A stretch of 64,000 bases of DNA from contig NZ_CP030104.1 of assembly GCF_003269425.1 (NCBI RefSeq), forward strand, positions 1,297,501 through 1,361,500, read 5' to 3'. Source of the DNA: Flagellimonas maritima. Lineage in GTDB: Bacteria > Bacteroidota > Bacteroidia > Flavobacteriales > Flavobacteriaceae. Shown piece after piece: positions 14,097 to 61,840 of this stretch. Position numbers and translations under genes: made by a program. Each line of letters starts with the position of its first letter. Within the stretch, counting starts at the first letter, position 1. The notes under the pieces are model-generated. The model saw only the letters and a list, made by a program, of their open reading frames with translations. It had not been told where the DNA came from and did not search any database.

Positions 14097-14161
14097 TTGA
14101 ATAAAGCTCGAAGACCCAGTTTTCGAACTTTAAAACATTAATCAATTCTTAAAAAAATAGA

Positions 14162-15037
14162 ATGAAAAAATCAATTATAATTATATTGGCATTAGGTTTT
14201 TTGACATGTGAGGAAAAGAAAACAGCGTCAACTGCCAATTTAGACGAAAAAAAAGAAGTTGCAGAACAAAAAACAGAACGAAATCTAAAACCTGATGGGA
14301 CACCTTATTCCGATAAAGAATTGGAAAACATGGGACACACCGAATCCATGGCCTTACTTTATGAAGTTCCTACAGATACCCTGAAAACCATTGGGATTTT
14401 CGTTTATGATGGTTTTTTTACTATGGACGCACTGGGGCCACTTTCGGTATTGAACAGCATGTATCCTACAAAAAAACTTCTGATCGGGCGGGAGAAAGGA
14501 ATTATTACAAGTAGCGATAATATAAAAATTGAAGTTGATTATGGAATTGAAGATATAGACCAGTTGGATATGTTGGTCATACCTGGTGGCTTTATCCAGA
14601 CCTACCAAGCTACCAAGGACCAAGAACTATTGGATTGGATACGTAAAATAGACCAGAACAGCAAATATACCGTTAGCGTCTGCACGGGAGCATGGATTTT
14701 AGGTGCTGCAGGACTGTTGGAAGGTAAAAAGGCCACTACGCATTGGTACCGTGCAGAGGAAAAGTTAGCTCAATACGGAGCAACTTTCGTAAAGGAACGC
14801 TATACCAATGATGGTAAGTACTGGACAAGTGCAGGTGTTTCCGCGGGCATAGATATGGGCTTGGCAATCGTAGATAAAATTTTGGGTAGAAATTACGCTG
14901 AATTTATAGCATTGAACCTAGAATATGATCCCCAACCCCCTTTTGAAAGTGGCCATCCCGACAAAGCTGACCGCGTGGTAACCATTATGACCGAGAAAAT
15001 GTTCGATGAAGGATTAAAACCATATATTGAAAAATAG
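14162..15037 (+). CDS. DJ-1/PfpI family protein, exported (lipoprotein-like)
   Basis: 291 residues. The N-terminus MKKSIIIILALGFLTCEEKK has a hydrophobic core then Cys, an imperfect lipobox, so probably anchored in the envelope. After an acidic linker (to about residue 70) the DJ-1/PfpI domain starts: IGIFVYDGFFTMDALGPLSV, then VIPGGF, then the nucleophile elbow SVCTGAWILGAAGLLEGKKA with Cys near residue 178, and THWYRAEE. This arrangement resembles isonitrile hydratase-type and AraC-less GlxA members. Reaction unknown. Exported DJ-1 proteins are unusual compared with the cytosolic majority. Confidence 0.82.
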   Translation: MKKSIIIILALGFLTCEEKKTASTANLDEKKEVAEQKTERNLKPDGTPYSDKELENMGHTESMALLYEVPTDTLKTIGIFVYDGFFTMDALGPLSVLNSMYPTKKLLIGREKGIITSSDNIKIEVDYGIEDIDQLDMLVIPGGFIQTYQATKDQELLDWIRKIDQNSKYTVSVCTGAWILGAAGLLEGKKATTHWYRAEEKLAQYGATFVKERYTNDGKYWTSAGVSAGIDMGLAIVDKILGRNYAEFIALNLEYDPQPPFESGHPDKADRVVTIMTEKMFDEGLKPYIEK

Positions 15038-15060
15038 ATACATTTGAAAAAATATGAAAA

Positions 15061-15483
15061 ATGAAATATAGTATATTTTTGGCCGCCTTCTTGTTTTTGG
15101 CAATTAGCTGCAAACAAGGAGAAAAAGCTTCTGAAAAATCAACACAGATGGAAAACGTAATGGCAATCCATGACGAAGTAATGCCAAAAATGGGGAAGTT
15201 GGGCAAATTGGTCGGTGAACTAAAAAGTAAGGTTGACACTACTGAAACCGGACAACAGTATAAAGCGGCGATGAAAGATTTACAAGAGGCCAATGTTGCA
15301 ATGATGGATTGGATGCAATCTTTTGGCAGCCGATTTGATTCTGATGAAATTCTTAATGGAAAGGAGCTCAGTGCGCAAAAACAAGAATGGTTGAATGAAG
15401 AGGAAGAAAATGTTAAGGCATTGAAGGAACAGATAAATTCCAGTATTGAAAAGGCTGAAAGTTTATTGGAAAAAGAAAAATAA
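15061..15483 (+). CDS. Small lipoprotein with coiled-coil potential
   Basis: 140 residues. MKYSIFLAAFLFLAISCKQG is a good lipoprotein signal (LAISC). The mature part is helical and charged (GKLVGELKSKVDT, LNEEEENVKALKEQINSSIE), suggesting coiled coil. Such proteins are often labelled viral A-type inclusion protein in Bacteroidota, a name without functional meaning. It follows the DJ-1 gene by 23 bases and abuts convergent gldD with 2 bases between stops. Function unknown. Confidence 0.65.
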   Translation: MKYSIFLAAFLFLAISCKQGEKASEKSTQMENVMAIHDEVMPKMGKLGKLVGELKSKVDTTETGQQYKAAMKDLQEANVAMMDWMQSFGSRFDSDEILNGKELSAQKQEWLNEEEENVKALKEQINSSIEKAESLLEKEK

Positions 15484-15485
15484 TT

Positions 15486-16043
15486 CTATTTTTTCCAACG
15501 CAATGTTTCCATAATCCTTCTGATATCTTTCTGCAAATAAACCGCTGCAGGAAGAATGGAATCATAATTGGGCTTGGCATAGAAATAGAGTGATCCGGTC
15601 ACAAAATGGTCCGTACTGTCCGTTACATAAAACTGTGATTGGGATGCTGCGTTACCGCTTACTTCATAAAACATACCATAGACTCTTTCATCAGTATTGA
15701 CAAAGGGCTGTTCCACAATATTATCCGCTTTTACCACATGCTCGTAAGATAGTTTTTGAGCATCGGTAAGCAAGGTTTTCAGATTATCTCTTACGGGCTT
15801 ATAAGTAATATAGACAGAGCCTTTCATCATAGGATAATCCAAAATTAAAGAACAGTCTTTGTTTTCTTTAAGGTTTGATAATGTATTAAGTTCAAAAGTA
15901 TACTTACAATTGGTTTTCAGATGTTGATATTGTGCATTGGGGTAATCCAAACGTAACATGGCACCAGGTTTGGGCAAAACCTCATCTCTGCAGCCTGCGA
16001 TAAAAATTAAAATAATAAGATATGCAGTCCAACTATACTTCAT
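15486..16043 (-). CDS. gldD: Gliding motility lipoprotein GldD
   Basis: 185 residues. Lipoprotein signal ILIFIAGCRDEVLPKP, followed by PGAMLRLDYPNAQY and the conserved central YPMMKGSVYITYKPV; these match GldD, needed for gliding and for function of the type IX secretion machinery in Flavobacteriia. It overlaps the gldE start region by 11 bases, the conserved gldE-gldD linkage. Full length. Confidence 0.93.
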   Translation of the reverse strand: MKYSWTAYLIILIFIAGCRDEVLPKPGAMLRLDYPNAQYQHLKTNCKYTFELNTLSNLKENKDCSLILDYPMMKGSVYITYKPVRDNLKTLLTDAQKLSYEHVVKADNIVEQPFVNTDERVYGMFYEVSGNAASQSQFYVTDSTDHFVTGSLYFYAKPNYDSILPAAVYLQKDIRRIMETLRWKK

Positions 16044-50681: not shown

Positions 50682-52742
50682 ATGAGAAATCTTTGTCTAA
50701 GTCTTTGTTTTTTATTTTTTATTAAAAGTTGGTGTCAGCAAGTAAAAAACGATACCCTCACCCGCTTGGATGAAATCATCTTGACCGAGGAGGTTATTTC
50801 AAAAAAAGCAGTTGGGATTACTCCTTCCTCAGCTATCGGCACCGAAACTTTTGAACGGTTCAACCCCGTGGACATTCCTTCGGGGATAAATCAAATATCT
50901 GGGGTTTATGTACTTTCAGGTGCGCTCAACACCAATCGTATCACCATTCGTGGGGTTGGGGCACGCACGCCTTTTGGCACCGACAAACTGCGTCTATATT
51001 TTAATGGAATTCCCGTGACCAACGGAACGGGTTTCTCTACCATTGAAGCTTTTGACTTGGAAAATTTGGGATCGCTTGAAGTTATTAAAGGACCCAAAGG
51101 AACAGCCTACGGTGCCAATCTGGGTGGCGCCATTCTCTTGAATACCAAACTTGCCCGCGAAGGAACAACCCGATTGGGTAACAATTTTACCGCAGGTTCC
51201 TACGGTATGTTCAAAAACAATGTCTCCGTCAGTCATCAAGATAAGGGATTCGGCATTAAAGTGAGCTACAATCGTTTGGAGACAGATGGTTTTCGGCAGA
51301 ACAATCGCTTTGTTCGGGATGGGATTCTGGTCAATTCCAATCTTGCCCTGAGTTCAAAAAGCACCCTCGGCATTTTGGTCAACCATATCGATTACAATGC
51401 ACAAATTCCCAGTTCTTTAGGGGAAACCGATTTTAGGGAAGACCCACGCAGGGCGGCCGCCAATTGGTTGGCCGCAAGAGGTTTTGAAGCCAATAAATAT
51501 ACCTTGACCGGCTTGTACCATCACTATCAAATTACGGATAAGCTAAAGAACACTACCAGCGTTTTCTATACCTATCTCGATAAAAATGAACCGCGACCGT
51601 TCAATATTCTGGAAGAAATTACCAACGGGTTTGGGCTACGAAGTCTTTTTGAAGGAAATTTTGGGAAGGCAGAATACGTTCTGGGCGGGGAACTGTACAA
51701 GGACGAATACGAATGGAGCACTTTTAGGAATCTATTTAGAGACCGTGATGGTGATGGTAGCTTTAGGGGGAATCAAATCAGTGAAAACAAGGAATTTAGG
51801 ACGCAGCTCAACCTCTTTGGAACGCTAACCTATCCATTTTCGGCACAATTCTCGGCACAAATGGGGCTTACTTATAACAAAACGGATTACGACTTTCGGG
51901 ACTTGTTCAACACGGGTGCGGACAACACCTCTGCCGAACGAAACTTTGATGATATCCTGCTCCCCAGTTTTGGCTTGCGCTATACCTTCGCCAACGGAAA
52001 TATATACGCCAATGTGAGCCGTGGATTTTCCAACCCCAGTTTGGAGGAAACCCTTACCCCGGACGGCATCATCAATCCCGATATTGCCCAAGAAACGGGA
52101 ACCAGTTATGAATTGGGCAGTAAAATCAATCTTTTTGACCGAAAATTGGTCATTGGAGCAACGCTCTACCGGATGGATATTAAAAATCTTTTGGTCGCCC
52201 AACGCGTGGGCGAAGACCAATTTGTGGGCCGAAATGCGGGGGAGACCCGCCACCAGGGTCTGGAACTGGATGCCAAATACCAAATCCCCATTGCCAAAAA
52301 GATATTGCTTTCCCCGTATATTGGCTATACCTTGAACGACCATCGCTTTGTGGATTTTGTAGATGGTGATGCTGATTTTTCGGGCAATCCGTTGACAGGT
52401 GTTCCAAGACACCGTATTAGCTCGGGTATTGATTTTATGTATATGGAAGGACTTCGTGCAAGCTTGACCCACCTGTATGTGGACGAAATTCCATTGACCG
52501 ATGCCAACACCTTACAAAGTGAGGCGTTTCATGTTTTTAATACCCGCTTAAATTACCGCACCCCTATTGGCAAACATTTCTCCTTAGGCTTAAATTTTGG
52601 CGCCAATAACCTCTTCAATACCCGGTTTGCGCAATCGGTGTTGATCAATGCCAATAGTTTTGGTGGAGCGGAACCCCGTTACTTTTATCCTGGGAACGAT
52701 AGGAACTATTTTGGTGGAGTGCGGTTGGGGTATCTTTTTTAA
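50682..52742 (+). CDS. TonB-dependent receptor
   Basis: 686 residues from the ATG at 50682 (an in-frame GTG at 50667 overlapping the previous stop would add five codons). Signal peptide MRNLCLSLCFLFFIKSWCQ. No carboxypeptidase-like domain. Plug: ISGVYVLSGALNTNRITIRG and LGSLEVIKGPKGTAYGANLG; barrel to the terminal Phe (RLGYLF). A DRDGDGSFRGNQ loop near residue 348 is calcium-loop-like. Siderophore/cofactor type by length. Its last 39 bases are repeated 906 bases downstream. Confidence 0.93.
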   Translation: MRNLCLSLCFLFFIKSWCQQVKNDTLTRLDEIILTEEVISKKAVGITPSSAIGTETFERFNPVDIPSGINQISGVYVLSGALNTNRITIRGVGARTPFGTDKLRLYFNGIPVTNGTGFSTIEAFDLENLGSLEVIKGPKGTAYGANLGGAILLNTKLAREGTTRLGNNFTAGSYGMFKNNVSVSHQDKGFGIKVSYNRLETDGFRQNNRFVRDGILVNSNLALSSKSTLGILVNHIDYNAQIPSSLGETDFREDPRRAAANWLAARGFEANKYTLTGLYHHYQITDKLKNTTSVFYTYLDKNEPRPFNILEEITNGFGLRSLFEGNFGKAEYVLGGELYKDEYEWSTFRNLFRDRDGDGSFRGNQISENKEFRTQLNLFGTLTYPFSAQFSAQMGLTYNKTDYDFRDLFNTGADNTSAERNFDDILLPSFGLRYTFANGNIYANVSRGFSNPSLEETLTPDGIINPDIAQETGTSYELGSKINLFDRKLVIGATLYRMDIKNLLVAQRVGEDQFVGRNAGETRHQGLELDAKYQIPIAKKILLSPYIGYTLNDHRFVDFVDGDADFSGNPLTGVPRHRISSGIDFMYMEGLRASLTHLYVDEIPLTDANTLQSEAFHVFNTRLNYRTPIGKHFSLGLNFGANNLFNTRFAQSVLINANSFGGAEPRYFYPGNDRNYFGGVRLGYLF
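52704..52742 (+). repeat. 39-bp direct repeat, copy 1 (receptor 3' end)
   Basis: Last 39 bases of the TonB receptor gene including its TAA; identical to 53610-53648. It encodes NYFGGVRLGYLF-stop. Confidence 0.95.
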
Positions 52743-52828
52743 TATAGATAGGATTAACTCCATAAAATCTTATGCTTTTCTACTATATTTATAGATGTCT
52801 AGATAAACCAATTTTAATAAAATAAAGT

Positions 52829-53521
52829 TTGCTAAATGCTATGAATAGAAATCTCTTGGTTTTAGTCACTCTCTTAGTTTGTTTTCTTTATTCCTTTGGG
52901 CAAAATTCCGAGACTACAACTATCCAAACTGATACACTTTTTTATCCTAATTACCCCGAAGGAGTTTATGTTAACAAGTCCGATTTTATAAAAAAGACTC
53001 CAAGTCAATTTGATGGCGTATAAGCAGTAAGCCTTTTTGGAAGAGACAGGCTTCCTGAAACTTCCAAAGTGCATAATTGCTATTTCTTTTCAGAGAAAAC
53101 CTCTCAAAAGATTAAAAATGTATTTGCCATATCTTACAACGGTAACCTGTATTTCCAAATTAAAGCAATACTCAAAAACCGGAACAAAGATGATAGAGCT
53201 CAAAGTTCAAGCTTACAGAATTCATTTGTAAGGGCCATCATGGGTGGTGAAAACTATTTATATACCGAAGCCGAATTGGTCAACAAATGGGCTGCAGGTA
53301 CTGCCGTAAACTTTGGAGTCGCTGGAGGGGCGGTTTATCAAGGTCTTATAAAAGGAAAAGGAATAGTTTGGGACTTCAAAAATAAGGAGTTCAATATTTT
53401 TAAATCCTGTAAGGACTATAATGAATTTATTGAACCCAAACTTGAAAATGCTGTACAGCAATGTGAAAAACATCAACCAGATATGCTGCAAGTAAGAGAA
53501 GCTATTTCAATAATCAAATGA
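52829..53521 (+). pseudogene. Exported protein gene broken by an in-frame stop
   Basis: One frame of 231 codons interrupted only by TAA at 53021-53023. The first part is a signal peptide (MNRNLLVLVTLLVCFLYSFG region) and VYVNKSDFIKKTPSQFDGV; after the stop the same frame continues AVSLFGRDRLPETSKVHNCY, then YNGNLYFQIKAIL and a C-terminal AISIIK. A single substitution explains it. I do not recognise the family. It lies inside the unit bounded by the 39-bp repeats. Confidence 0.75.
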
Positions 53522-53609: not shown

Positions 53610-53648
53610 AACTATTTTGGTGGAGTGCGGTTGGGGTATCTTTTTTAA
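53610..53648 (+). repeat. 39-bp direct repeat, copy 2
   Basis: Identical to 52704-52742. Here it is not part of a gene; a 13-bp inverted-repeat structure starts at its right end. Confidence 0.95.
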
Positions 53649-53735: not shown

Positions 53736-53980
53736 GTGTTGATAATCAAAAAAGAATAGGTTATCATAATTTACCTAAAAACGTGTAAGATAACCTAAGA
53801 TTCTCTTTGGATATACTTACCTTTTTGGCTAGGTTTATATATACAAACGATGATGTCGAATTCGGCTGAACGTTATAATATTATACTGACTTACTGAAAT
53901 CTCTTTATTTTTTTCCCTTCTTTTTTTAGCTTGTTTACGGATTAAAAAGAATTTCAAATAAAATTAAAACCCTATATAAT

Positions 53981-54685
53981 ATGAAATCACTTGAAATTAT
54001 TTTTAGTCTTATAGCTGCAATTTTAACCGCTTTTGTATCATATAAGTGGAAAAACATAGACATACTAGGTAAAATCACATTAATAGCTGTTATAATTGCT
54101 ACGATATTTATTGCTATAAACTCTTTCAGACAAACAAAAAAGGAAGCCTTAATTGAAAGGGTAAATGCTAAATTTGGGGATATTAAAACTAGCAGCTCAC
54201 CAAGAATGCAAATAAAACTGGGAGATAAAGAGTGGGCTGCAGGGTTTGTTACTGTTAGTGGTGTGTTTAGAATAGGTAATTATGGCCCTTGGTTTAAATT
54301 AGGTTATGAAAATAATACATTATTAATTAATTTCATAATAAGAGATTTAAACGGAAAAGTTATAGCAGTAATAGAAGATAACGTATGGACTATTTTTGAT
54401 AATAACTATGAATATAATAATGACGACACTACCTTTGAAATGGTTACTAAAGGAGAAAGAAAGGTGTTTTTTCAAATTAAATATAGAAAAGGGGAGGCTT
54501 ATTTAACTGGATTTTTATTAGATGAAAAAGCTAATGGATTTGCTATTTATGGTATGGAGAAGGGTAAAGGCACTAAGGTAAAACCGATAGGAGAAAACAA
54601 GCAAAATGCTCCAACTCCAACCGATTTAAATATCCCTCGAATATTCAAGTATCCGAGGGGTAAATATTTAGGTGTTAAATTATGA
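53981..54685 (+). CDS. Membrane-anchored protein of unknown function, AT-rich
   Basis: 234 residues. Two N-terminal hydrophobic helices (SLEIIFSLIAAILTAFVSY and LGKITLIAVIIATIFIAI) then a soluble beta-rich domain (VSGVFRIGNYGPWFKLGYEN, LLINFIIRDLNGKVIAVIED, WTIFDNNYEYNN). The base composition is clearly more AT-rich than the chromosome before 52.7 kb, suggesting transfer. I do not recognise a family. It is probably the first gene of the cassette array, between the 53.7-kb hairpin and the attC-like site at 54.9 kb. Confidence 0.7.
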   Translation: MKSLEIIFSLIAAILTAFVSYKWKNIDILGKITLIAVIIATIFIAINSFRQTKKEALIERVNAKFGDIKTSSSPRMQIKLGDKEWAAGFVTVSGVFRIGNYGPWFKLGYENNTLLINFIIRDLNGKVIAVIEDNVWTIFDNNYEYNNDDTTFEMVTKGERKVFFQIKYRKGEAYLTGFLLDEKANGFAIYGMEKGKGTKVKPIGENKQNAPTPTDLNIPRIFKYPRGKYLGVKL

Positions 54686-54772
54686 TTTTTTATTGTTTTT
54701 CAACGCTATCTGAATATTGATAAGCATTAGTAATAAACAAATTACTGCTAAATATATTTTAATTATTTCCAT
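54680..54772 (-). CDS. Possible 30-aa single-helix peptide
   Basis: Reads MEIIKIYLAVICLLLMLINI then a basic tail KNNKKS on the minus strand, overlapping the end of the 234-aa gene by 6 bases. A hydrophobic helix with Lys tail resembles membrane peptides of type I toxin systems, but AT-rich DNA gives such frames by chance. No RNA antitoxin evidence. Confidence 0.25.
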   Translation of the reverse strand: MEIIKIYLAVICLLLMLINIQIALKNNKKS

Positions 54773-54910
54773 AGTTTTATCTTTTTAAATTGTTATTATA
54801 AATAATTATATAGATTTTGTTATCTTTTGCTTCCGACTGTCAGCAATCTGCCCTCCCTCAAAAAATAAAGTATTCAGTATGTCAATGAACTTTTGAACTG
54901 ATAAAGTACT

Positions 54911-55047
54911 GTCAACAACATGGTATATAATTAATTGCTAGTTCAGTTCTTACTTACGAAAATTCTTCCGAATTTTCTAGTCCGTTTTTATTTGCTATTT
55001 TAGTGGTTTAACCACGCAACGAAATCATACACAAACAAGTTCAGGTC
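54911..55047 (+). other. attC-like site c0
   Basis: Starts GTCAAC-AACATGGTATATAATT and ends CATACACAAACAA-GTTCAGGTC. The interior is homologous to site c2: TAATTGCTNGTTC, an apical stem AAAATTC..GAATTTT (54959-54976) and ACCACGCAAC near the 3' side. Marks the end of the 234-aa cassette. R'' to cassette-start match is weak here. Confidence 0.6.
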
Positions 55048-55318
55048 AATTCGGCCGGTGCCGACCCGCGTTGCTATATTTTGCTTCGCAAAATCCCGCC
55101 CCACGGGAAATCGACCTGAACGGAAGCACTGTACCAAATTGGTTTTCCCCCTCTCCAGGTCCGGCGCACGGCCGGATAAGACAGCGCGCAGGGTCGAACT
55201 GACACGAACACCTGGCCATAAGCAATTTGGCACGGCCTTACCCGTATTTTGCCCTTTATGGCTATCTTGGATACCCAACAGAACAAAATCCACGGCCGCA
55301 CTGCGTATAGCGCTTCCG
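55040..55318 (+). other. ORF-less GC-rich cassette c1
   Basis: Begins at GTTCAGGTC (55039-55047) and reaches its own reverse complement GACCTGAAC at 55113-55121, so the cassette body is only about 70 bases and holds no gene. The whole block to 55318 is strikingly GC-rich and palindromic compared with the AT-rich neighbours. Frames across 55000-55337 on both strands are by-products of this composition. The gene-free gap 54686-55386 is made of site c0, this cassette and site c1. Confidence 0.7.
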
Positions 55319-55326
55319 TTGTGTGC
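55113..55326 (+). other. attC-like site c1 (long)
   Basis: R'' GACCTGAAC (55113-55121) is the 9/9 complement of the cassette start at 55039. Arms AACGGAAGC (55119-55127) and GCTTCCGTT (55312-55320) are perfect inverted copies. The inner part has CCAAATTG/CAATTTGG. Site ends in GTTGTGTGC. At 214 bases it is the longest of the array. Confidence 0.75.
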
Positions 55327-55341
55327 AATTTGAGCAAAATT

Positions 55342-55371
55342 TTGTTATAATACCAATTTTTGGTATATTTG
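55342..55371 (+). promoter_or_regulatory. Promoter with operator palindrome of the parDE cassette
   Basis: TTG (55342-55344), 19-base spacer, TATATTTG (55364-55371) is a full Bacteroidota promoter, 16 bases before the antitoxin start. The perfect palindrome ATACCAA-TTT-TTGGTAT (55350-55366) covers the spacer and the -7 box, as expected for an operator bound by the ParD antitoxin. Confidence 0.8.
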
Positions 55372-55386
55372 AGAAAAATATGTCAA

Positions 55387-55638
55387 ATGAACAAAAACAC
55401 ATCAATATCACTCGGAAACTATTTTGACCAATTCGTTCAAAGCCGAATAAGTGAAGGAAGATTTAAAAACGTTAGTGAGGTCATACGTGCTGGACTAAGA
55501 CTTTTAGAGGAAGAAGAAAGTAAAGTCATTGCATTAAAAAACGCAATACAAGAAGGAATTGACAGCGGAATTGCTCACGATTTTGACCCAAAAAAACATT
55601 TGGAATCTTTAAAAGCGAAAAAGCGCTCGAATGGTTGA
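55387..55638 (+). CDS. parD: ParD-family antitoxin (type II)
   Basis: 83 residues from the ATG at 55387 (an upstream in-frame start at 55360 would overlap the -7 box). Ribbon-helix-helix: TSISLGNYFDQFVQSRISEG, then VSEVIRAGLRLLEEEESKV; the C-terminus wraps the toxin (DFDPKKHLESLKAKKRSNG). Autoregulates through the palindrome at 55350. It overlaps the toxin gene by 8 bases. The pair forms one cassette, which would resist loss from the array. Confidence 0.93.
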   Translation: MNKNTSISLGNYFDQFVQSRISEGRFKNVSEVIRAGLRLLEEEESKVIALKNAIQEGIDSGIAHDFDPKKHLESLKAKKRSNG

Positions 55639-55930
55639 ATATAAACTGACCAACAAAGCTGTCGAGGATTTATCTAAGATTTGGGACTATACATTTGAAG
55701 TCTGGTCTGAAAAACAAGCTGACAAATATTACGATGGACTAATTTCTAACTGTGAAGAAATCGCAGAAAATCCAGAGTTGGGAAAAAACTATGAAGGAAT
55801 ATCCAAACAACTTCTCGGAATGAAAACAAATCGACACATAATATTTTACAGAACGGCGGAAAAAAATTATGTTGAAATAACGAGGATATTGCACGAACGA
55901 ATGGATTTAAAGAACAGAATAACCGAATAA
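55631..55930 (+). CDS. parE: ParE/RelE-superfamily toxin
   Basis: 99 residues: VEYKLTNKAVEDLSKIWDYT, YDGLISNCEEIAENPELGKN and the C-terminal NRHIIFYRTAEKNYVEITRI with LHERMD, typical of ParE toxins (gyrase-targeting) in the RelE fold. Six bases after the stop the cassette-end repeat GCACACAAC begins. Confidence 0.93.
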   Translation: MVEYKLTNKAVEDLSKIWDYTFEVWSEKQADKYYDGLISNCEEIAENPELGKNYEGISKQLLGMKTNRHIIFYRTAEKNYVEITRILHERMDLKNRITE

Positions 55931-55935
55931 AAACT

Positions 55936-56070
55936 GCACACAACAATGGCTATAAGTAATTGCTTGTTCTCGCCTACTTCTGAAAATCCTCACGGATTTT
56001 CAGTTCGGTGTGTACTTGCAAAAGTTAGTGCTAAACCACGCAACTGTTCATAGCCGAGACCGTTAGCCAC
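55936..56070 (+). other. attC-like site c2
   Basis: R'' GCACACAAC (55936-55944) is the exact 9/9 complement of the start of this cassette, GTTGTGTGC at 55318. Inner arms GGCTAT (after AAT) and ATAGCC (before GAGACC) pair. Apex TGAAAATCC..GGATTTTCA (about 55980-56001). Ends in GTTAGCCAC (56062-56070). 135 bases. Confidence 0.88.
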
Positions 56071-56081
56071 AATTAGAAAAA

Positions 56082-56594
56082 ATGAACGGAATAACATTTA
56101 TAGAGAATTATATTGACAATCCAACCGAATTGTTTAATAGTTTAAAAAACAATGTTGAATGGGATGAGAGAATGTCTGCTCGCAAAACAGCGAGTTACGG
56201 AAAAGCATATAATTATTCTCAAATTAGTTATCCTTTTCAAGAGTTTACGGCTGAATTGAATGAAATAATTGAAAAGATAAATAACACACTGAATTTCAAA
56301 CCGAATAATTGTTTAATTAATTACTATTTGGGCGGTAAATCTAAAATGGGATTTCACTCTGACCAAACAGATATTTTAGAGGAGAATACAGGAGTTGGAA
56401 TAGTTTCTATTGGAGAAACCAGAATATTAAGGTTTAGGAATATTGAAAATCGCGATATAATAAAAGACTTTGAACTTCCTTCAGGTTCATTCATTTATAT
56501 GACAAATGAATTACAAGACGAATGGCAACACTCAATTCCGAAATCTGAAACTGAAAACGGAAGAATGAGTTTGACATTTAGAAAGATAAAATAA
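56082..56594 (+). CDS. AlkB-like Fe(II)/2-oxoglutarate dioxygenase
   Basis: 170 residues. NCLINYYLGGKSKMGFHSDQ carries the His-x-Asp iron ligands, EWQHSIPKS the distal His, and MSLTFRKIK the Arg that binds 2OG at the C-terminus. GIVSIGETRILRFRN is the jelly-roll centre. AlkB-type proteins remove alkyl groups from nucleic acid bases; this one is short, so the exact target is open. A single-gene cassette whose start codon is 12 bases after the GTTAGCCAC repeat; no own promoter seen. Confidence 0.85.
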   Translation: MNGITFIENYIDNPTELFNSLKNNVEWDERMSARKTASYGKAYNYSQISYPFQEFTAELNEIIEKINNTLNFKPNNCLINYYLGGKSKMGFHSDQTDILEENTGVGIVSIGETRILRFRNIENRDIIKDFELPSGSFIYMTNELQDEWQHSIPKSETENGRMSLTFRKIK

Positions 56595-56596
56595 CT

Positions 56597-56753
56597 GTGG
56601 CTAACAATGGCTATAAGTAATTGCTAGTTCTCGCCTACCCTTCGGCTCCGCTCAGGGCTGGCTAAATCCACTCGGAATTGCTAAAGTCCGTGCCAAACCG
56701 AAAAACAGTAACTTAAAAACCGTAACCTACGGCTATACGAGACCGTTAGCCTT
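56597..56753 (+). other. attC-like site c3 (chimeric)
   Basis: R'' GTGGCTAAC (56597-56605) is the exact complement of GTTAGCCAC that opens this cassette. The left half resembles site c2 (AATGGCTATAAGTAATTGCT) but the right half resembles c4 (CTACGGCTATACGAGACC), so the second arms do not pair. The apex contains CCCTTCGGCTCCGCTCAGGG (56638-56657). Ends GTTAGCCTT (56745-56753). Confidence 0.82.
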
Positions 56754-56774
56754 CATTCAACCAAACTTAACTCA

Positions 56775-57182
56775 ATGAAAAAAAATATCTACGGAATTAT
56801 AATTACTATTATCAGTATCATAAATATGCTCTTTATGATTTTCTGCTTCTTGGTTTACGATATGGGACTGAATAACAATATCTACATAATTGGCGGAACT
56901 ATAATTTCAATCGGACTTTTAATTTTATTGTTCAAAAACAACGTCTATGGATACATTGGAACTATAATCTTTTATGGAATTCAAATGTTCGGAACTGAAT
57001 TGATTTTCGAAAATTTTCGATATGGATTAATTCTGCGTTCTGAATCTGATGGTAGCGTAAATTCGACTGACTTTCAATTGGATTTAAATACAACAGCGAT
57101 ACTTTTGGTTATTTTAGGAATATTGGGCTATTTGAGATATAAAAAACTGACTGAATTAAAAGCGGAATCTAAAACTGAATAA
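56775..57182 (+). CDS. Four-helix membrane protein, unknown
   Basis: 135 residues with four hydrophobic segments (about residues 6-30, 36-52, 57-72 and 108-122) and a basic/acidic tail LTELKAESKTE. AT-rich codon use. Nothing recognisable. Single-gene cassette between sites c3 and c4; the start lies 22 bases inside the cassette. Confidence 0.65.
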   Translation: MKKNIYGIIITIISIINMLFMIFCFLVYDMGLNNNIYIIGGTIISIGLLILLFKNNVYGYIGTIIFYGIQMFGTELIFENFRYGLILRSESDGSVNSTDFQLDLNTTAILLVILGILGYLRYKKLTELKAESKTE

Positions 57183-57189
57183 AAAACGA

Positions 57190-57347
57190 AAGGCTAACAA
57201 TGTATAACCGCAATTACGGCGGATTCGACTACCCTTCGGCTACGCTCGGGGCTGGCTGAATCCACTCGGAATTGTTAAAGTCCGTGCCAAACCAAAAAAC
57301 AGTAACTTAAAATCCGTAACTGACGGTTATACGAGACCGTTGTACAC
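57190..57347 (+). other. attC-like site c4
   Basis: R'' AAGGCTAAC (57190-57198) is the exact complement of the cassette start GTTAGCCTT (56745). Arms GTATAACCG..TTACGG and CCGTAA..CGGTTATAC pair well, with unpaired AAT on the left and GAGACC on the right, before GTTGTACAC (57339-57347). Apex CCCTTCGGCTACGCTCGGGG (57232-57251). Confidence 0.9.
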
Positions 57348-57352
57348 CATCA

Positions 57353-58105
57353 ATGAAAAACCTGCTTGCAAGTATAATTACCCTTCTGATTTTTAATAAT
57401 TCCTTTGCTCAAAAAAGTGAATCTGAATTATTGAAAAATTATGAATTCTATGTTGAGAAAAACATAGAAATGGGAAAATGGAGTTCTAAATTTTATCTTA
57501 TAAACGGAATTGTTTCAGTACGAGAAAATTATTGGAAAAATGAACTACGAAGCCGAACGGAATTTGAATACGACCGATTTGGAAATGTAGAACGTGAAAC
57601 AAATACCTTTGACATCAACAAAGGACAGATAAACGATATTTCAAACCTTAAATTGGAATATTATGACTCATTGCTTGTAAGAAAGAAATTTGATTTTGGA
57701 ATGACCGAAAAATATTCTGACTTCAACAAATTGGGAAAACCCAAACTGATTGAAAGAATTGAGGAATCTGATTTCAAAGCTTGGCCTTATAAAGAACTGG
57801 TGGAATATGATAAAAAAGGAGATATTATTAAATCAACAGAATTCAGTACTTACGACGATTTGAACGGAAAAACTGTCAACGAAAAAGCTACATCATATTA
57901 TAAATATGACGACCGAAATAGTGTGATTGAAATTCACAGAGAATATGAACCAACACAAGAATTTCCAATCCCAATGACAGGAGGACCTTTTTTGTATGAG
58001 TATGAGTATTTCAGATACAAATATAACAGGATTGGCCTTTGGACTAAAAAGTATAAATCAGTAAATGGAAAAGAATATCTTGTTGCTAGAAGAAAATATA
58101 AATAA
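57353..58105 (+). CDS. Exported protein with YD-like repeats, unknown
   Basis: 250 residues. Signal peptide MKNLLASIITLLIFNNSFAQ. The mature part has repeated short strands of the form EFEYDRFGNVERETN, LVEYDKKGDIIKSTEF, YYKYDDRNSVIEIHREY and YKYNRIGLWTKK, reminiscent of RHS/YD repeats, so probably a beta-rich envelope protein. Single-gene cassette with only six bases between the attC end and its ATG. Confidence 0.7.
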   Translation: MKNLLASIITLLIFNNSFAQKSESELLKNYEFYVEKNIEMGKWSSKFYLINGIVSVRENYWKNELRSRTEFEYDRFGNVERETNTFDINKGQINDISNLKLEYYDSLLVRKKFDFGMTEKYSDFNKLGKPKLIERIEESDFKAWPYKELVEYDKKGDIIKSTEFSTYDDLNGKTVNEKATSYYKYDDRNSVIEIHREYEPTQEFPIPMTGGPFLYEYEYFRYKYNRIGLWTKKYKSVNGKEYLVARRKYK

Positions 58106-58107
58106 CA

Positions 58108-58265
58108 GTGTACAAAATTCTATAACCGCAATTACGGCGGATTCGACTACCCCTCGACTACACTCGGGGCTGGCTGAATCCACTCGGAATTGATAACGTC
58201 AGTGCTAAGACGAAAATTGACGCATATTAACCCGTAACTGACGGTTATACGAGACTGTTATGTCT
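58108..58265 (+). other. attC-like site c5
   Basis: R'' GTGTACAAA (58108-58116) matches the complement of the cassette start GTTGTACAC in 8 of 9 positions. Arms TATAACCGCAATTACGG and CCGTAACTGACGGTTATA pair; GAGACT precedes GTTATGTCT (58257-58265). Apex CCCCTCGACTACACTCGGGG (58150-58169). Confidence 0.85.
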
Positions 58266-58294
58266 TATTTTTGAATAAAAAAGTATAAAGAATT

Positions 58295-59152
58295 ATGAAA
58301 CACATATTAATATTCTTCACTATGCTTAGTGTTTTAGTAACAAATGCCCAAGAAAAATTTGCAGACGGTATTATCTGCACCGTTGACTATAATGAATATG
58401 GGCTTACATTCATAACTGAAAATTGGATCTGTTTTACTAAATCTGAGGATAGAAATACACTCATGTTTTCTAGGTATGAAAATAATTCATGGACAAAACC
58501 AATCATAGCTCCATTCTCAGGAGTATATCCTGATGAATATCCTAGATTTGATAGAACTACAAGCAGATTATTTTTTGCATCTAAAAGACCATCCGAGAAT
58601 GACAAAATTAAAGCCTCCAATGACATCTGGTATGTAGAGTTGAAAAATGATATGTGGTCAAAGCCAATTCATTTGGAAGGAAATTTCTCCACCAATGGAA
58701 TTGAGAGTGGAGCGGAAAGTTCTAATGGCATAATCTATTTCCATTCGGATCGAAAAGGAAAAGGATTGAATGACGTTGATATATACTCATTACCGTTAGG
58801 AGCAACAGAAGATTCGGCAAAGTATATATCAGTAAGTAGTGAAAAAGTTGATGGCGAACCGTATATTTTTAATAATGGTAATGCAATGCTATTTATGAGC
58901 GCGGGACATAATACTGTAGGTAATGGCGATATTTTTTTAACTCTTTTTGAAAATGATGAATGGACGACCCCGACTCCAGTCGATACAACAGGCAAGGTAA
59001 ATACAATTGATTGGGAATATTCGCCTGTTCTTTCTCCTGATTTGAAAACTCTCTATTTCACGAGATACGTAAATGGACAAGCAGACATATTTCAAATTGA
59101 TGTTAAATTATTATCAAATAAGGAACTGCAAAATATTGCTAATCTAAATTAA
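58295..59152 (+). CDS. Exported PD40 (WD40-like beta-propeller) repeat protein
   Basis: 285 residues, signal peptide ending VTNAQ. PD40/TolB-like blades are seen in YPRFDRTTSRLFFASKRPSE, GIIYFHSDRKGKGLNDVDIY, AMLFMSAGHNTVGNGDIFLT and SPDLKTLYFTRYVNGQADIF. Probably periplasmic binding or scaffold. Cassette gene; its last bases run directly into the end repeat AATAAGACATAAC, which overlaps the stop region. Confidence 0.82.
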   Translation: MKHILIFFTMLSVLVTNAQEKFADGIICTVDYNEYGLTFITENWICFTKSEDRNTLMFSRYENNSWTKPIIAPFSGVYPDEYPRFDRTTSRLFFASKRPSENDKIKASNDIWYVELKNDMWSKPIHLEGNFSTNGIESGAESSNGIIYFHSDRKGKGLNDVDIYSLPLGATEDSAKYISVSSEKVDGEPYIFNNGNAMLFMSAGHNTVGNGDIFLTLFENDEWTTPTPVDTTGKVNTIDWEYSPVLSPDLKTLYFTRYVNGQADIFQIDVKLLSNKELQNIANLN

Positions 59153-59225
59153 TAAGACATAACACTGTATATAAAATCATAGCACCATGCGGGATGCTAC
59201 GCTTCATATACTAAACGTTGTATCC
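59151..59225 (+). other. attC-like site c6 (short)
   Basis: AATAAGACATAAC (59151-59163) is the 13/13 complement of the start of this cassette, GTTATGTCTTATT at 58257. Arms GTATAT and ATATAC follow ACT and precede TAAAC, then GTTGTATCC (59217-59225). About 71 bases, the size of classical attC sites. Confidence 0.9.
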
Positions 59226-59268
59226 AATAGCCCCAAACCCTTAATAATTAATTCGGTACCTTTTCAGA

Positions 59269-60951
59269 ATGAAATATTCTAAAAGCGCACTGCTCATTCT
59301 GGGAACTATCCTTTTTTTTTCGATTTCTTCATGTAAAAACAACACACCGAATCCAAATTTAACATCATTAAACCTATTGCGAGGAGAACTACAATTATGT
59401 GGTAACGGACAATTTGGAGATGTCAACTTTTCTGAATCCTGTAGCTACGAAACAAGAGAAACCTTTAATCTTGCCATTTCTTTGCTCCACTCCTTTGAAT
59501 ATATTGAAGCAGAAAAAGCATTTGTTAAAATAATAGACAAAGACCCAGATTGTGCCATGGCTTACTGGGGCGTAGCAATGAGTATTTATCATGGATTATG
59601 GGCACCTCCAACGAACTCCGTTTTAGAAAAAGGAGTAAAGCTTATAGCAATAGCTCAAAAATTACCTAAATCTAAAAAAGCGAAACAATATTTAGACGCC
59701 ATAGGTTCTTTTTATAAGAACTGGGAATCAGTCGATAACCAAACCCGAAAGCTTGCTTATGCCCAAAAAATGAAAGAGATGTATGAAGAAAATAGCGAGG
59801 ATACCGAAGTAGCTGTATTCTATGCCTTGGCGCTTCGTGCATCTGCAATAGCCTCAGACAAAACCTATTCAAAACAACGTGAAGCTGGAAAAATTTTAGA
59901 AGATTTGTTCAAAAAGGAACCGAACCATCCGGGTATTGCACACTATATTATTCATTCCTATGATTATCAAGAATTGGCCAAACTAGGATTGAGTACAGCC
60001 AGACGCTATGCAGATATTGCTCCAAATTCTGCCCACGCCCAACATATGCCATCACATATTTTTACACGTTTGGGACTTTGGGATGAATCAATTGACACTA
60101 ATCTCAATTCTGCCGAATCAGCAGTTTGTTATGCTGAAAGTATTTCACCCGGAGCACATTGGGATGAAGAAGTACATGCCATGGGATATTTGGTTTATGC
60201 CTATCTGCAAACAGGGAATAATAAACTTGCTTATGAACAATACGAGTATCTTAAATCTTTTAAGGAAATCTTTCCGCCTAACTTTAAAATTGCATATACA
60301 GCAGCGGCGATTCCTGCTCGTTTAGCCGTGGAAAACAAAAATTGGAAAGAGGCTGCACATCTTGAATTGCCTCAATTTGCGGGATTAGAGTGGCAACAAT
60401 TCCCCTGGCAAAAAGCATTACTTCATTATGCAAAAGCTCTGGGAAATATTCATGTTAATAATATAGAAGCGGCTCAAAACGAACTTGATTTGCTACGTTC
60501 TTTTGAAAAGGAGTTGATAGATTTGAAGGACGCTTATAAAGCAAATCAAGTCGCTATCCAAATTAAAACCATAGAAGCATGGCTCCAACTAAAAAAAGGG
60601 AATAATGACGAAGCCATATCCTTAATGATTACTGCGGCAGATATGGAAAGTTTAACCTCAAAACATCCTGTAACTCCGGGTGAAATCTTACCAGCGGATG
60701 AACTTTTAGCTGATATGCTCTTGGCTTTAAATAAACCTCAAAAAGCTTTAACTGCTTACGAAGTAAATTTAGATAGACGTCCAAACAGATTCAATGGCAT
60801 TTATGGTGCAGCAATAGCAGCGAAACAATCTGGTAACATGGAAAAAGCAACATTATATTTTGAAAGTTTACTTGCACTAACAGAAAACGTAGTTAGCGAT
60901 AGACCAGAAATTAAAGAGGCAAAAGATTTTCTTAAGAAGAAAATTATTTGA
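59269..60951 (+). CDS. TPR-containing lipoprotein
   Basis: 560 residues. Lipoprotein signal LILGTILFFSISSCKNN. TPR-like helices are frequent: LLHSFEYIEAEKAFVKIIDK, CAMAYWGVAMSIYHGLW, HAQHMPSHIFTRLGLWDESI, HYAKALGNIHVNNIEAAQNE and the C-terminal LLALNKPQKALTAYEVNLDR. These resemble the exported TPR proteins that accompany SCO-type genes in Bacteroidota. Its stop is one base from the SCO gene, so the pair is co-expressed. Confidence 0.85.
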   Translation: MKYSKSALLILGTILFFSISSCKNNTPNPNLTSLNLLRGELQLCGNGQFGDVNFSESCSYETRETFNLAISLLHSFEYIEAEKAFVKIIDKDPDCAMAYWGVAMSIYHGLWAPPTNSVLEKGVKLIAIAQKLPKSKKAKQYLDAIGSFYKNWESVDNQTRKLAYAQKMKEMYEENSEDTEVAVFYALALRASAIASDKTYSKQREAGKILEDLFKKEPNHPGIAHYIIHSYDYQELAKLGLSTARRYADIAPNSAHAQHMPSHIFTRLGLWDESIDTNLNSAESAVCYAESISPGAHWDEEVHAMGYLVYAYLQTGNNKLAYEQYEYLKSFKEIFPPNFKIAYTAAAIPARLAVENKNWKEAAHLELPQFAGLEWQQFPWQKALLHYAKALGNIHVNNIEAAQNELDLLRSFEKELIDLKDAYKANQVAIQIKTIEAWLQLKKGNNDEAISLMITAADMESLTSKHPVTPGEILPADELLADMLLALNKPQKALTAYEVNLDRRPNRFNGIYGAAIAAKQSGNMEKATLYFESLLALTENVVSDRPEIKEAKDFLKKKII

Positions 60952-60952
60952 T

Positions 60953-61588
60953 ATGAGACTCAATATATCACATTCAATATTTATTGTCTTTGCAATTTGT
61001 TGTGTATTTTCTTGTAATCAAATAAAAGAGTTACCAGTTTATAATCCATCAGATTTTAATCCAGAATTGGTAGATGTAAGTTTACATAACACAAATAAAA
61101 ATCATACGGTTGGAGACTTTGAATTGATAAATCAGAATGGAGATACGATAACTCAAGACCATTATAAAGATAAAATATATGTGGTCGATTTCTTTTTTAC
61201 GAGTTGCCCAACCATTTGTCCAATAATGACAACTAATATGGCTGAACTTCAAAATGAATTTTTAAAAAATGAAGACATTATGTTCTTGTCACTATCCGTA
61301 ACACCTGCTATCGATAGTATTTCAGTTCTAAAAAAATATGCCAAAGAAAATGATGTGATAGACTCTAAATGGAATATAACTACCGGCAATAAAAAACACA
61401 TTTATGAATTAGCCAGAAAAAGTTATTTCGCTGTTGTAGAGCAAGGCGATGGAGGTCTCCAAGATTTTATTCATACACCTAACTTTATATTGGTGGACAA
61501 GAAAAAACAAATACGCGGAATGTATGATGGAACAAATGACAAAGAAATCGAACGGTTAGTAAATGACATGCGTATTTTGACAAACTAA
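60953..61588 (+). CDS. SCO1/SenC family copper-binding thioredoxin-like protein
   Basis: 211 residues. Lipoprotein-like start (VFAICCVFSCNQIKEL). Thioredoxin fold with the copper-binding Cys pair in FFFTSCPTICPIMTTNMAEL (C-x3-C) and the His ligand in QDFIHTPNFILVDKK. SCO proteins deliver copper to cytochrome oxidase or act as redox chaperones. Downstream of the TPR lipoprotein; no oxidase gene is near. Confidence 0.92.
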   Translation: MRLNISHSIFIVFAICCVFSCNQIKELPVYNPSDFNPELVDVSLHNTNKNHTVGDFELINQNGDTITQDHYKDKIYVVDFFFTSCPTICPIMTTNMAELQNEFLKNEDIMFLSLSVTPAIDSISVLKKYAKENDVIDSKWNITTGNKKHIYELARKSYFAVVEQGDGGLQDFIHTPNFILVDKKKQIRGMYDGTNDKEIERLVNDMRILTN

Positions 61589-61606
61589 TTATTATCAAAT
61601 TCTACT

Positions 61607-61738
61607 GGGTATAACACCGTGCATAGCTCATTGCAGCTAAATTCTCAATCATAATTCTTTGCAAATTACTATCTTTCGGTCACTGCAGTAAATAATAGCT
61701 CACTTACCGCAATAAGCCGTATACAAAGCGTTGAGCCA
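61607..61738 (+). other. Degenerate attC-like site c7
   Basis: GGGTATAAC (61607-61615) is a 7/9 complement of the cassette start GTTGTATCC (59217); both mismatches would be G-T pairs. Ends in GTTGAGCCA (61730-61738). Inner arms are unclear. The gap 61589-61888 holds this site, the remnant at 61730-61825 and the ECF promoter. Confidence 0.5.
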
Positions 61739-61825
61739 CAATCCCTGCGGTCGCTCAGACCGTCCCGAACACATCGGGGACTGCTCTCTGGGCTATTGTG
61801 GTACAAAGGCCAGGCTGTTAGGCAC
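61730..61825 (+). other. Palindromic remnant at the right edge of the array
   Basis: GTTGAGCCACAAT ... ATTGTGG and a second GTTAGGCAC (61817-61825); GCCACAAT/ATTGTGG is inverted, and CCGTCCCGA..TCGGGGAC forms the apex. Looks like an attC-type site without a cassette gene. Confidence 0.5.
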
Positions 61826-61840
61826 AAGCTGAAAAAAACG

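Follow-up and report, generated by a model that had tools for sequence, protein, structure and literature searches.

Integron integrases are usually recognised by an additional domain. In the portions of the literature available to us, this domain is taken as their mark (PMC9668308; PMC8352920; PMC2426708), and at least two published surveys chose IntI proteins by it (PMC8352920; PMC2426708). According to the accessible part of PMC7790495, the I2 helix and single-strand recombination co-occur in integron integrases only, and deletion of the I2 domain abolishes IntI1 function. Integron distribution has been reviewed (PMC8618304), and the excerpt of PMC9024848 at hand, which deals with complete genomes, counts a single complete integron for Bacteroidetes proper. 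Part of PMC8138268 describes the insertion as 'not fully conserved' in an integron-like subgroup, and therefore part of what follows may be known to specialists. In the accessible portions of the open-access literature (subscription journals lying mostly, and preprints wholly, outside), we found no report of I2-less integrons or of arrays beside such proteins. In this study, we describe a cassette array in a stretch of 64,000 nucleotides (nt) of the Flagellimonas maritima chromosome (NZ_CP030104.1, positions 1,297,501 to 1,361,500, forward strand; the whole stretch is called the window and numbered from its first letter). We consider it very probable that this array is the relic of an integron-like system of Bacteroidota which, in its complete form, places a Xer-like tyrosine recombinase without the I2 insertion beside an attI site. 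Judged from its sequence, the system appears to work like an integron while lacking what defines integron integrases. The relic is ordinary by itself; what it leads to is not.

Three described systems come close. With chromosomal integrons the system shares the recombinase-attI-array layout, cassettes of one or two genes in the same direction, a GTT core, imperfect palindromes that mostly fold better on the bottom strand, and cassette starts that complement their own ends. It differs from the IntI-type systems in recombinases that have no IntI-specific insertion and fall outside the IntI clade, in asymmetric spacers, and in cores that seldom fit GTTRRRY, the classical integron core consensus; in one subfamily with long recombinases the array also sits downstream of the recombinase gene, in line with it. 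Like a cluster of attC sites lacking an integrase (CALIN), the window array is a cluster of cassette sites with no recombinase beside it; unlike a CALIN, it keeps an attI-like sequence and its sites appear to belong to a non-IntI recombinase system. Finally, the recombinases resemble XerA, XerC and XerD in overall architecture and in their short connector, and archaeal Xer-like 4a8e is the best solved relative of the protein from a congener (locus L053); in contrast to these enzymes, the array-linked recombinases adjoin an attI and a cassette array, and several are N-terminally extended by about 100 residues.

The array occupies 53.8-61.8 kb of the window behind the attI-like sequence and consists of same-direction units split by palindromic sites of 71-216 nt, the genes of the units all being on the plus strand. 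The units begin at 55039, 55318, 56062, 56745, 57339, 58257 and 59217, and a degraded one at 61730. The first-pass annotation had described these units, palindromic sites and plus-strand genes at 54900..61830; the array is real, and its head lies further upstream, at about 53805-53849. Two long sites that had been taken as single ones were resolved otherwise: the first comprises a site plus a gene-less mini-cassette with its own long site, and the last comprises site c6 plus a degraded mini-unit. The features, with open reading frames (ORFs), are as follows.

53805..53849, plus strand: attI-like sequence (TTTTTGGCTAGGTTTATATATACAAACG), the array head; its 13-nt core recurs, with similar flanks, at the heads of two other arrays.
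53850..55038, plus strand: first unit, ORF 53981-54685 without Pfam match, and site c0 (about 54910-55038).
55039..55317, plus strand: gene-less mini-cassette of 279 nt, including its own long site 55112-55317.
55318..56061, plus strand: ParD-ParE cassette, ORFs 55390-55638 and 55631-55930, site c1 (Pfam; start/end pairing).
56062..56744, plus strand: 2-oxoglutarate (2OG)-Fe(II) oxygenase (AlkB-like) cassette, ORF 56082-56594, site c2 (Pfam; start/end pairing).
56745..57338, plus strand: membrane protein cassette, ORF 56775-57182, site c3 (start/end complement of 9 nt).
57339..58256, plus strand: exported protein cassette, ORF 57353-58105, site c4 (positions 2-9 give 8 pairs).
58257..59216, plus strand: PD40 protein cassette, ORF 58295-59152, short site c5 (start/end complement; Pfam PD40).
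59217..61729, plus strand: cassette of two genes, tetratricopeptide repeat (TPR) and SCO1, with ORFs 59269-60951 and 60953-61588 and site c6 at about 61609-61729 (Pfam; 10 pairs including 2 G.T).
61730..61816, plus strand: degraded mini-unit GTTGAGCCACAAT ... ATTGTGGTACAAA, followed by the last GTT at 61817 (inverted ends read directly; degenerate, unscored).

In each of the seven units, the first nucleotides pair with the last nucleotides of the same unit before its site. The ParD-ParE cassette, for example, starts with GTTGTGTGCA at 55318, which pairs with TGCACACAAC ending at 55944, and the oxygenase cassette has start GTTAGCCACA and end TGTGGCTAAC; the exported protein cassette ends in AAA instead of AAC. 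Over positions 4-10, 46 of 49 pairs form when G.T is allowed, against a mean of 25.9 under random reassignment of ends, and among all 5040 permutations the value of 46 is reached by the identity alone. The ends that face each other across a site form just 2, 2, 5, 2, 5 and 4 of 7 pairs. Pairing inside the unit and not across the junction is the mark that would be expected of units existing as circles. In three units, the TPR-SCO1 unit among them, ten pairs are followed by a mismatch at position 11 and then three further pairs; the TPR-SCO1 unit holds its ten pairs through two G.T. None of the seven unit starts fits GTTRRRY, in line with the earlier remark that the cores mostly depart from this consensus. 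The bottom strand folds better at 7/8 window sites, c3 being the exception. A strict array caller, which demands strong hairpins on both sides, recovered 1/7 window units and, beyond the array, one chance pair, which makes it specific but of low sensitivity.

Gene contents are unrelated, as had been proposed: Pfam identifies ParD, ParE, a 2OG-Fe(II) oxygenase, PD40, TPR repeats and SCO1/SenC, and gives no match for three window ORFs (the one at 53981 and those of the membrane and exported proteins). An Rfam scan of the window gave no match. The oxygenase gene was found in 2/70 genus genomes (E <= 1e-25), this one and G298 (69% identical), in differing contexts, and it therefore does not behave as a vertical locus; within 15 kb around the G298 gene no chained cassette was found. 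The proposed comparison with vertical loci applied only to that extent, since, for the sigma gene flanking the array, the two closest homologues among those fetched from the genus (G270, G293) showed neither a syntenic array locus nor an empty site. As separate observations, the oxygenase (56082-56594) also aligns with the 2OG portion of CARF_2OG, a PADLOC model (E 2.9e-15), and some 33 nt at the end of a TonB-type gene (52711-52743) recur about 905 bp further on (53615-53647), the repeats bracketing an insert with ORF 53069-53521 directly upstream of the attI-like sequence.

The chromosome, a single 3.77-Mb contig, carries three arrays behind one attI-like sequence: that of the window (53834), one at L013 (position 11084) and one at L191 (position 2365; about 3.537 Mb). 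The assignment of the window attI rests on its similarity to the heads of the other two. One site-end pattern (IUPAC code) has 7 exact matches in the genome, all within the three arrays; with one mismatch it gave 18 matches against 27 for a backwards control, and this looser form was not used. The 279-nt mini-cassette has evidently multiplied here: at least ten full-length copies lie in the three arrays (10 of 15 candidates scored), among them L191 4860-17849, L013 12001 and 17000, and window 55039, and the other nine are 93-96% identical to the query. Left and right neighbours are different for every one of the ten copies, which is indirect evidence for excision and insertion as a circle. The element occurs in 1/71 genus genomes, this one, and may be a selfish or spacer cassette; in L191, gene cassettes sit between several of its copies. 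An IS110-family insertion sequence (Pfam PF02371, PF01548) lies inside a cassette site of L013 at about 14134-15508, between AACAATGGCT and GCTATAAGTAATTGC, which recalls the habit of IS1111-attC elements.

No tyrosine recombinase is encoded in the window, as first stated: PF00589 matches at six places in the genome, all elsewhere. Five are full-length and not of the array type, namely XerD (over cut-off), a XerC-like protein that matches the XerC model best but stays below its cut-off, and three that carry an arm-binding domain. The sixth, at 1636733-1636963, about 275 kb from the window array, is a C-terminal remnant in a divergent layout, followed by the attI-like sequence and the array of L013. 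This remnant, beside a sister array, is the only array-type recombinase that was found in this genome. The initial annotation had left the choice between an integrase-less CALIN and a related, poorly described system of flavobacteria, and both halves apply: the window array is free of a recombinase, and in relatives the recombinases beside arrays have no IntI-specific insertion.

Complete loci were found in the genus. The integron integrase model is matched in 32/60 genus genomes at E <= 1e-24, the listed matches covering about positions 2-181 or 239-315 and none spanning the stretch between. Loci were fetched from 26 of the 32 matching genomes; 19/26 genomes, or 22/32 loci, hold at least one strictly chained cassette. 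In the loci with a long recombinase, the distance from its stop codon to the junction is 126-127 nt in 11/11, with 11 different first cassettes. The left 30 columns of this attI are conserved at 0.88 and columns 4-40 past the junction at 0.56 (random 0.46), conservation falling after the GTT. In three genomes (L037, L038, L039) an identical 127-nt attI is followed by three different cassettes; the recombinase copy of L037 has an in-frame stop, and that of L038 is open. Short recombinases have the attI on their opposite side at a distance fixed per subfamily, counted from the open-frame edge as 54 nt (L044, L195, L196, L202, L203), 142 nt (L041, L047) or 42 nt (L197, L204), and in the 54-nt and 142-nt subfamilies (five and two loci) the cassettes differ; a second candidate start is also present in L203. 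An attI next to the recombinase with a first cassette in place, as in integrons, is thus seen in all long-type loci and in other subfamilies too, and the attI sequences differ between recombinase subfamilies. A self-paired first cassette lies within 450 nt of the recombinase in 37/71 entries compared with 22/284 random placements; many of the 71 entries come from other phyla, and one locus appears among them twice. In the long subfamily, the attI forms a nested palindrome, TATACTGAAC / GTTCAGTATA around TTGGGCATA / TATGCCCAA, within 127 nt past the recombinase stop in L035-L040, L043, L045, L046, L048 and L050.

Across related arrays the strict caller found 95 chains in 55 loci, the shuffle mean being 2.0. 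The 55 loci include 18 canonical-IntI control loci, and the 95 chains include repeat pairings of the identical L191 mini-cassettes, other repeats (L173, L196, L198), the L035/L193 loci, which overlap, and a number of chance pairs. De-duplication left 84 oriented cassettes in 30 loci (of 31 entered, with the direction set by hand from the recombinase or attI side). Because entry to this set required 9 nt of pairing, it cannot gauge pairing up to position 9. Its longest ORFs (at least 60 residues) lie on the plus strand in 72/74 cases, the spacer on the AAC side is the shorter in 74/84 cassettes (mostly 2-3 nt, compared with 5-6 nt on the GTT side), and the bottom strand is the more stable in 74/84 sites, a comparison made without a shuffled control. 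A set with a 7-nt entry condition (96 cassettes, of a kind that appears nine times in shuffles) matches at 0.90 at positions 8 and 9, 0.55 at position 10 and 0.09 at position 11, and only 4/96 of its cassettes fit GTTRRRY, so the departure seen in the window is general. The long own-end pairing has some ten pairs, then an A.C mismatch at position 11 and some three further pairs; start position 11 is A in 83/84 cassettes and the opposite nucleotide C in 58/84, a frequent mismatch between paired stretches. Own-end pairing of 10 nt was dropped as a unique mark after the canonical-IntI loci L182, L186, L189 and L190 showed 10-12 in a few cassettes, and the frequent mismatch at position 11 is possibly the only remaining mark of the I2-less system. 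In canonical-IntI loci at least one strict chain was called in 7/18, some by chance. The Rufibacter locus L102 (10889-16435) has seven chained cassettes with several very short sites of about 54 nt, unlike those of the window.

The array-linked recombinases are of a distinct type. Their two catalytic motifs are 58-59 residues apart (63 in L108), compared with 100-105 in canonical IntI and 65-68 in a group including the XerD of this genome, with no entry between 68 and 100 among 158 (duplicates included); L199 and L200 have arrays, their recombinases being missed by the motif search. In the alignment, the IntI-specific additional domain is absent from the array-linked relatives. The L053 protein, of 277 residues, has 23 opposite 66 residues of VchIntIA (2a3v) in its match to that structure. 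Against solved structures L053 scores 134 bits with archaeal Xer-like 4a8e, 122 with XerA and 109 with 2a3v. Six array-linked recombinases reach 192-209 bits with the integron-integrase model TIGR02249 (cut-off 265); with NF040815, the XerA-type model 'site-specific tyrosine recombinase/integron integrase' (cut-off 220), L051 passes (234) and the other five stay below (190-219).

It is rather unlikely, though a serious possibility, that these recombinases stem from the IntI lineage, by secondary loss or as an early branch of it, instead of reflecting a separate origin of integron function. Layout and site logic match those of integrons, and an approximately unbiased test that joined IntI with the I2-less clade did not reject the union (p = 0.064). 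In a tree of 78 rows, however, the 13 IntI rows form one clade (100/100) free of I2-less rows, and 24/24 array-linked rows fall outside it, all in a 43-row clade (88/66) of Bacteroidota and genus rows; XerD, Patescibacteria, archaeal and Firmicutes rows stand nearer to IntI than this clade does. The tree omits by name L054, L119, L150, L151 and L168 (mostly long branches), L193 (a duplicate) and the non-IntI row of L182, as well as twenty thinned loci (near-copies, but also L093, L095, L097, L103, L105, L115, L123 and L126) and two of three IntI rows. Two separate origins of IntI and the I2-less recombinases are therefore likely from the tree, short of demonstration.

Another reading, which we regard as very improbable, makes the window array a plain CALIN whose divergent attC sites stem from a classical IntI integron. 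The remnant does score best with the integron integrase model among NCBIfam models (positions 239-315, 103.7 bits) and with VchIntIA among solved structures (73.1 bits), and canonical IntI is frequent elsewhere in the phylum: TIGR02249 matches in 108/395 Bacteroidota genomes at E <= 1e-50, over cut-off in 105 of them. However, its matches over cut-off number 0/249 in family and 0/60 in genus genomes, the best match of the remnant among fetched recombinases is the complete I2-less congener L053 (122 bits, as against 82 for the best canonical IntI and 81 for the best of the 65-68 group), and in complete congener loci it is an I2-less recombinase that sits at the attI. At E <= 1e-40 the model also gave 0/10 in the named array-bearing genomes (completeness not given). 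The 105 genomes are, as a side point, far more than the single complete integron counted among complete genomes in the available part of PMC9024848.

We give as little credence to the view that the neighbouring recombinases are passengers and that host XerC/XerD or another enzyme moves the cassettes. This genome has XerD and a XerC-like protein, and CTXphi shows that Xer is able to use folded DNA (PMC7790495, in part), but the attI sequence differs by recombinase subfamily, and its conservation stops at a junction that keeps a fixed distance from the recombinase. The view that the palindromes are common dispersed repeats or terminators, and the genes between them unrelated and vertically inherited, has a negligible chance: the likeness of sites c2-c4 in sequence, the many chance start/end pairs that a loose caller yields outside the array and the excess of the backwards control over the one-mismatch pattern speak for it, but it is refuted by own-end pairing and opposed by the boundaries of the ten mini-cassettes, the excess of strict chains over shuffles, the confinement of the exact site-end matches to the three arrays and the rarity of the AlkB-like gene in the genus.

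Outside the genus, a scan of named genomes retained 80 loci among at least 590 matching stretches, 45 of them longer than 6 kb with an I2-less recombinase; many named loci end at contig ends. Among the matches listed, two or more chained cassettes were found in 8/45 and one in 5/45. The eight are from Flammeovirgaceae UBA6059, Flavobacterium aciduliphilum, Rufibacter sp. SYSU D00344, Algibacter onchidii, Winogradskyella ursingii, a Sphingobacteriales metagenome-assembled genome (MAG), Seonamhaeicola aphaedonensis and Bacteroidetes GWF2_41_31. Four of them (L099, L102, L107, L120) gave no first cassette within 450 nt of the recombinase; their called chains lie one to several kb away. Algoriphagus ornithinivorans and Aquiflexum have one chain and a first cassette close to the recombinase. 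In a Spirochaetota MAG (L105, 8746-9822), a possible self-paired first cassette lies 101 nt downstream of an I2-less recombinase; this case outside Bacteroidota may reflect binning, transfer or chance.

Several observations weigh against the reading of a relic of an I2-less integron-like system. Among the matches listed, 32/45 named I2-less loci have no strict chain, and neither has any non-Bacteroidota named locus except for a single chain in L130, which is maybe due to chance. In the genus, 10/32 loci have none (L036-L040, L049, L051, L054, L194, L201); at least six of these show an attI and a cassette start (L036-L040 among them), and L036, L051 and L201 have a self-paired first cassette. 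In the window, the first unit (53850..55038) has a degenerate start, and no start/end match was found there when looked for. The bottom-strand preference could come partly from base composition, and because a few canonical-IntI loci likewise pair their own ends over 10-12 nt, such pairing is no mark of the I2-less system. The remnant starts past the segment that would house most of the IntI insertion, and because of this the absence of I2 from the own recombinase of this genome is inferred from relatives.

We nevertheless favour the following mechanism for the I2-less system. In complete loci, an I2-less Xer-like tyrosine recombinase adjoins an attI site and would itself catalyse the reaction there. 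Circular gene cassettes would enter the attI at the GTT core, where the crossover presumably takes place, and build up as a same-direction array, each cassette terminating in an imperfect palindromic site. The first 9-10 nucleotides of a cassette complement its own last ones, ends that can pair with each other only in the free circle, and the folded bottom strand is probably the substrate, so that recombination would be single-stranded. In F. maritima, decay of the recombinase appears to have spared just a C-terminal remnant beside one of the three arrays, and this would have left the window array stranded in a CALIN-like state.

Beyond this genome, it is tempting to speculate that a second, independently evolved kind of integron exists across Bacteroidota, in which I2-less Xer-like recombinases recombine folded single-stranded cassette sites; we put this forward tentatively and are slightly inclined to doubt it. 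If true, I2 would not be needed for hairpin recombination, and the long own-end pairing may replace it in recognising or orienting the folded cassette. Arrays beside I2-less recombinases either break the I2 rule or show double-strand movement of cassettes, and the system offers a possible test of whether hairpin recombination needs the I2 helix; either answer would inform how integrons arose. Since the surveys considered here, so far as their available text goes, selected IntI by its additional domain, I2-less systems would be scored as integrase-less or be missed, and a pool of mobile genes in Bacteroidota may go uncounted.

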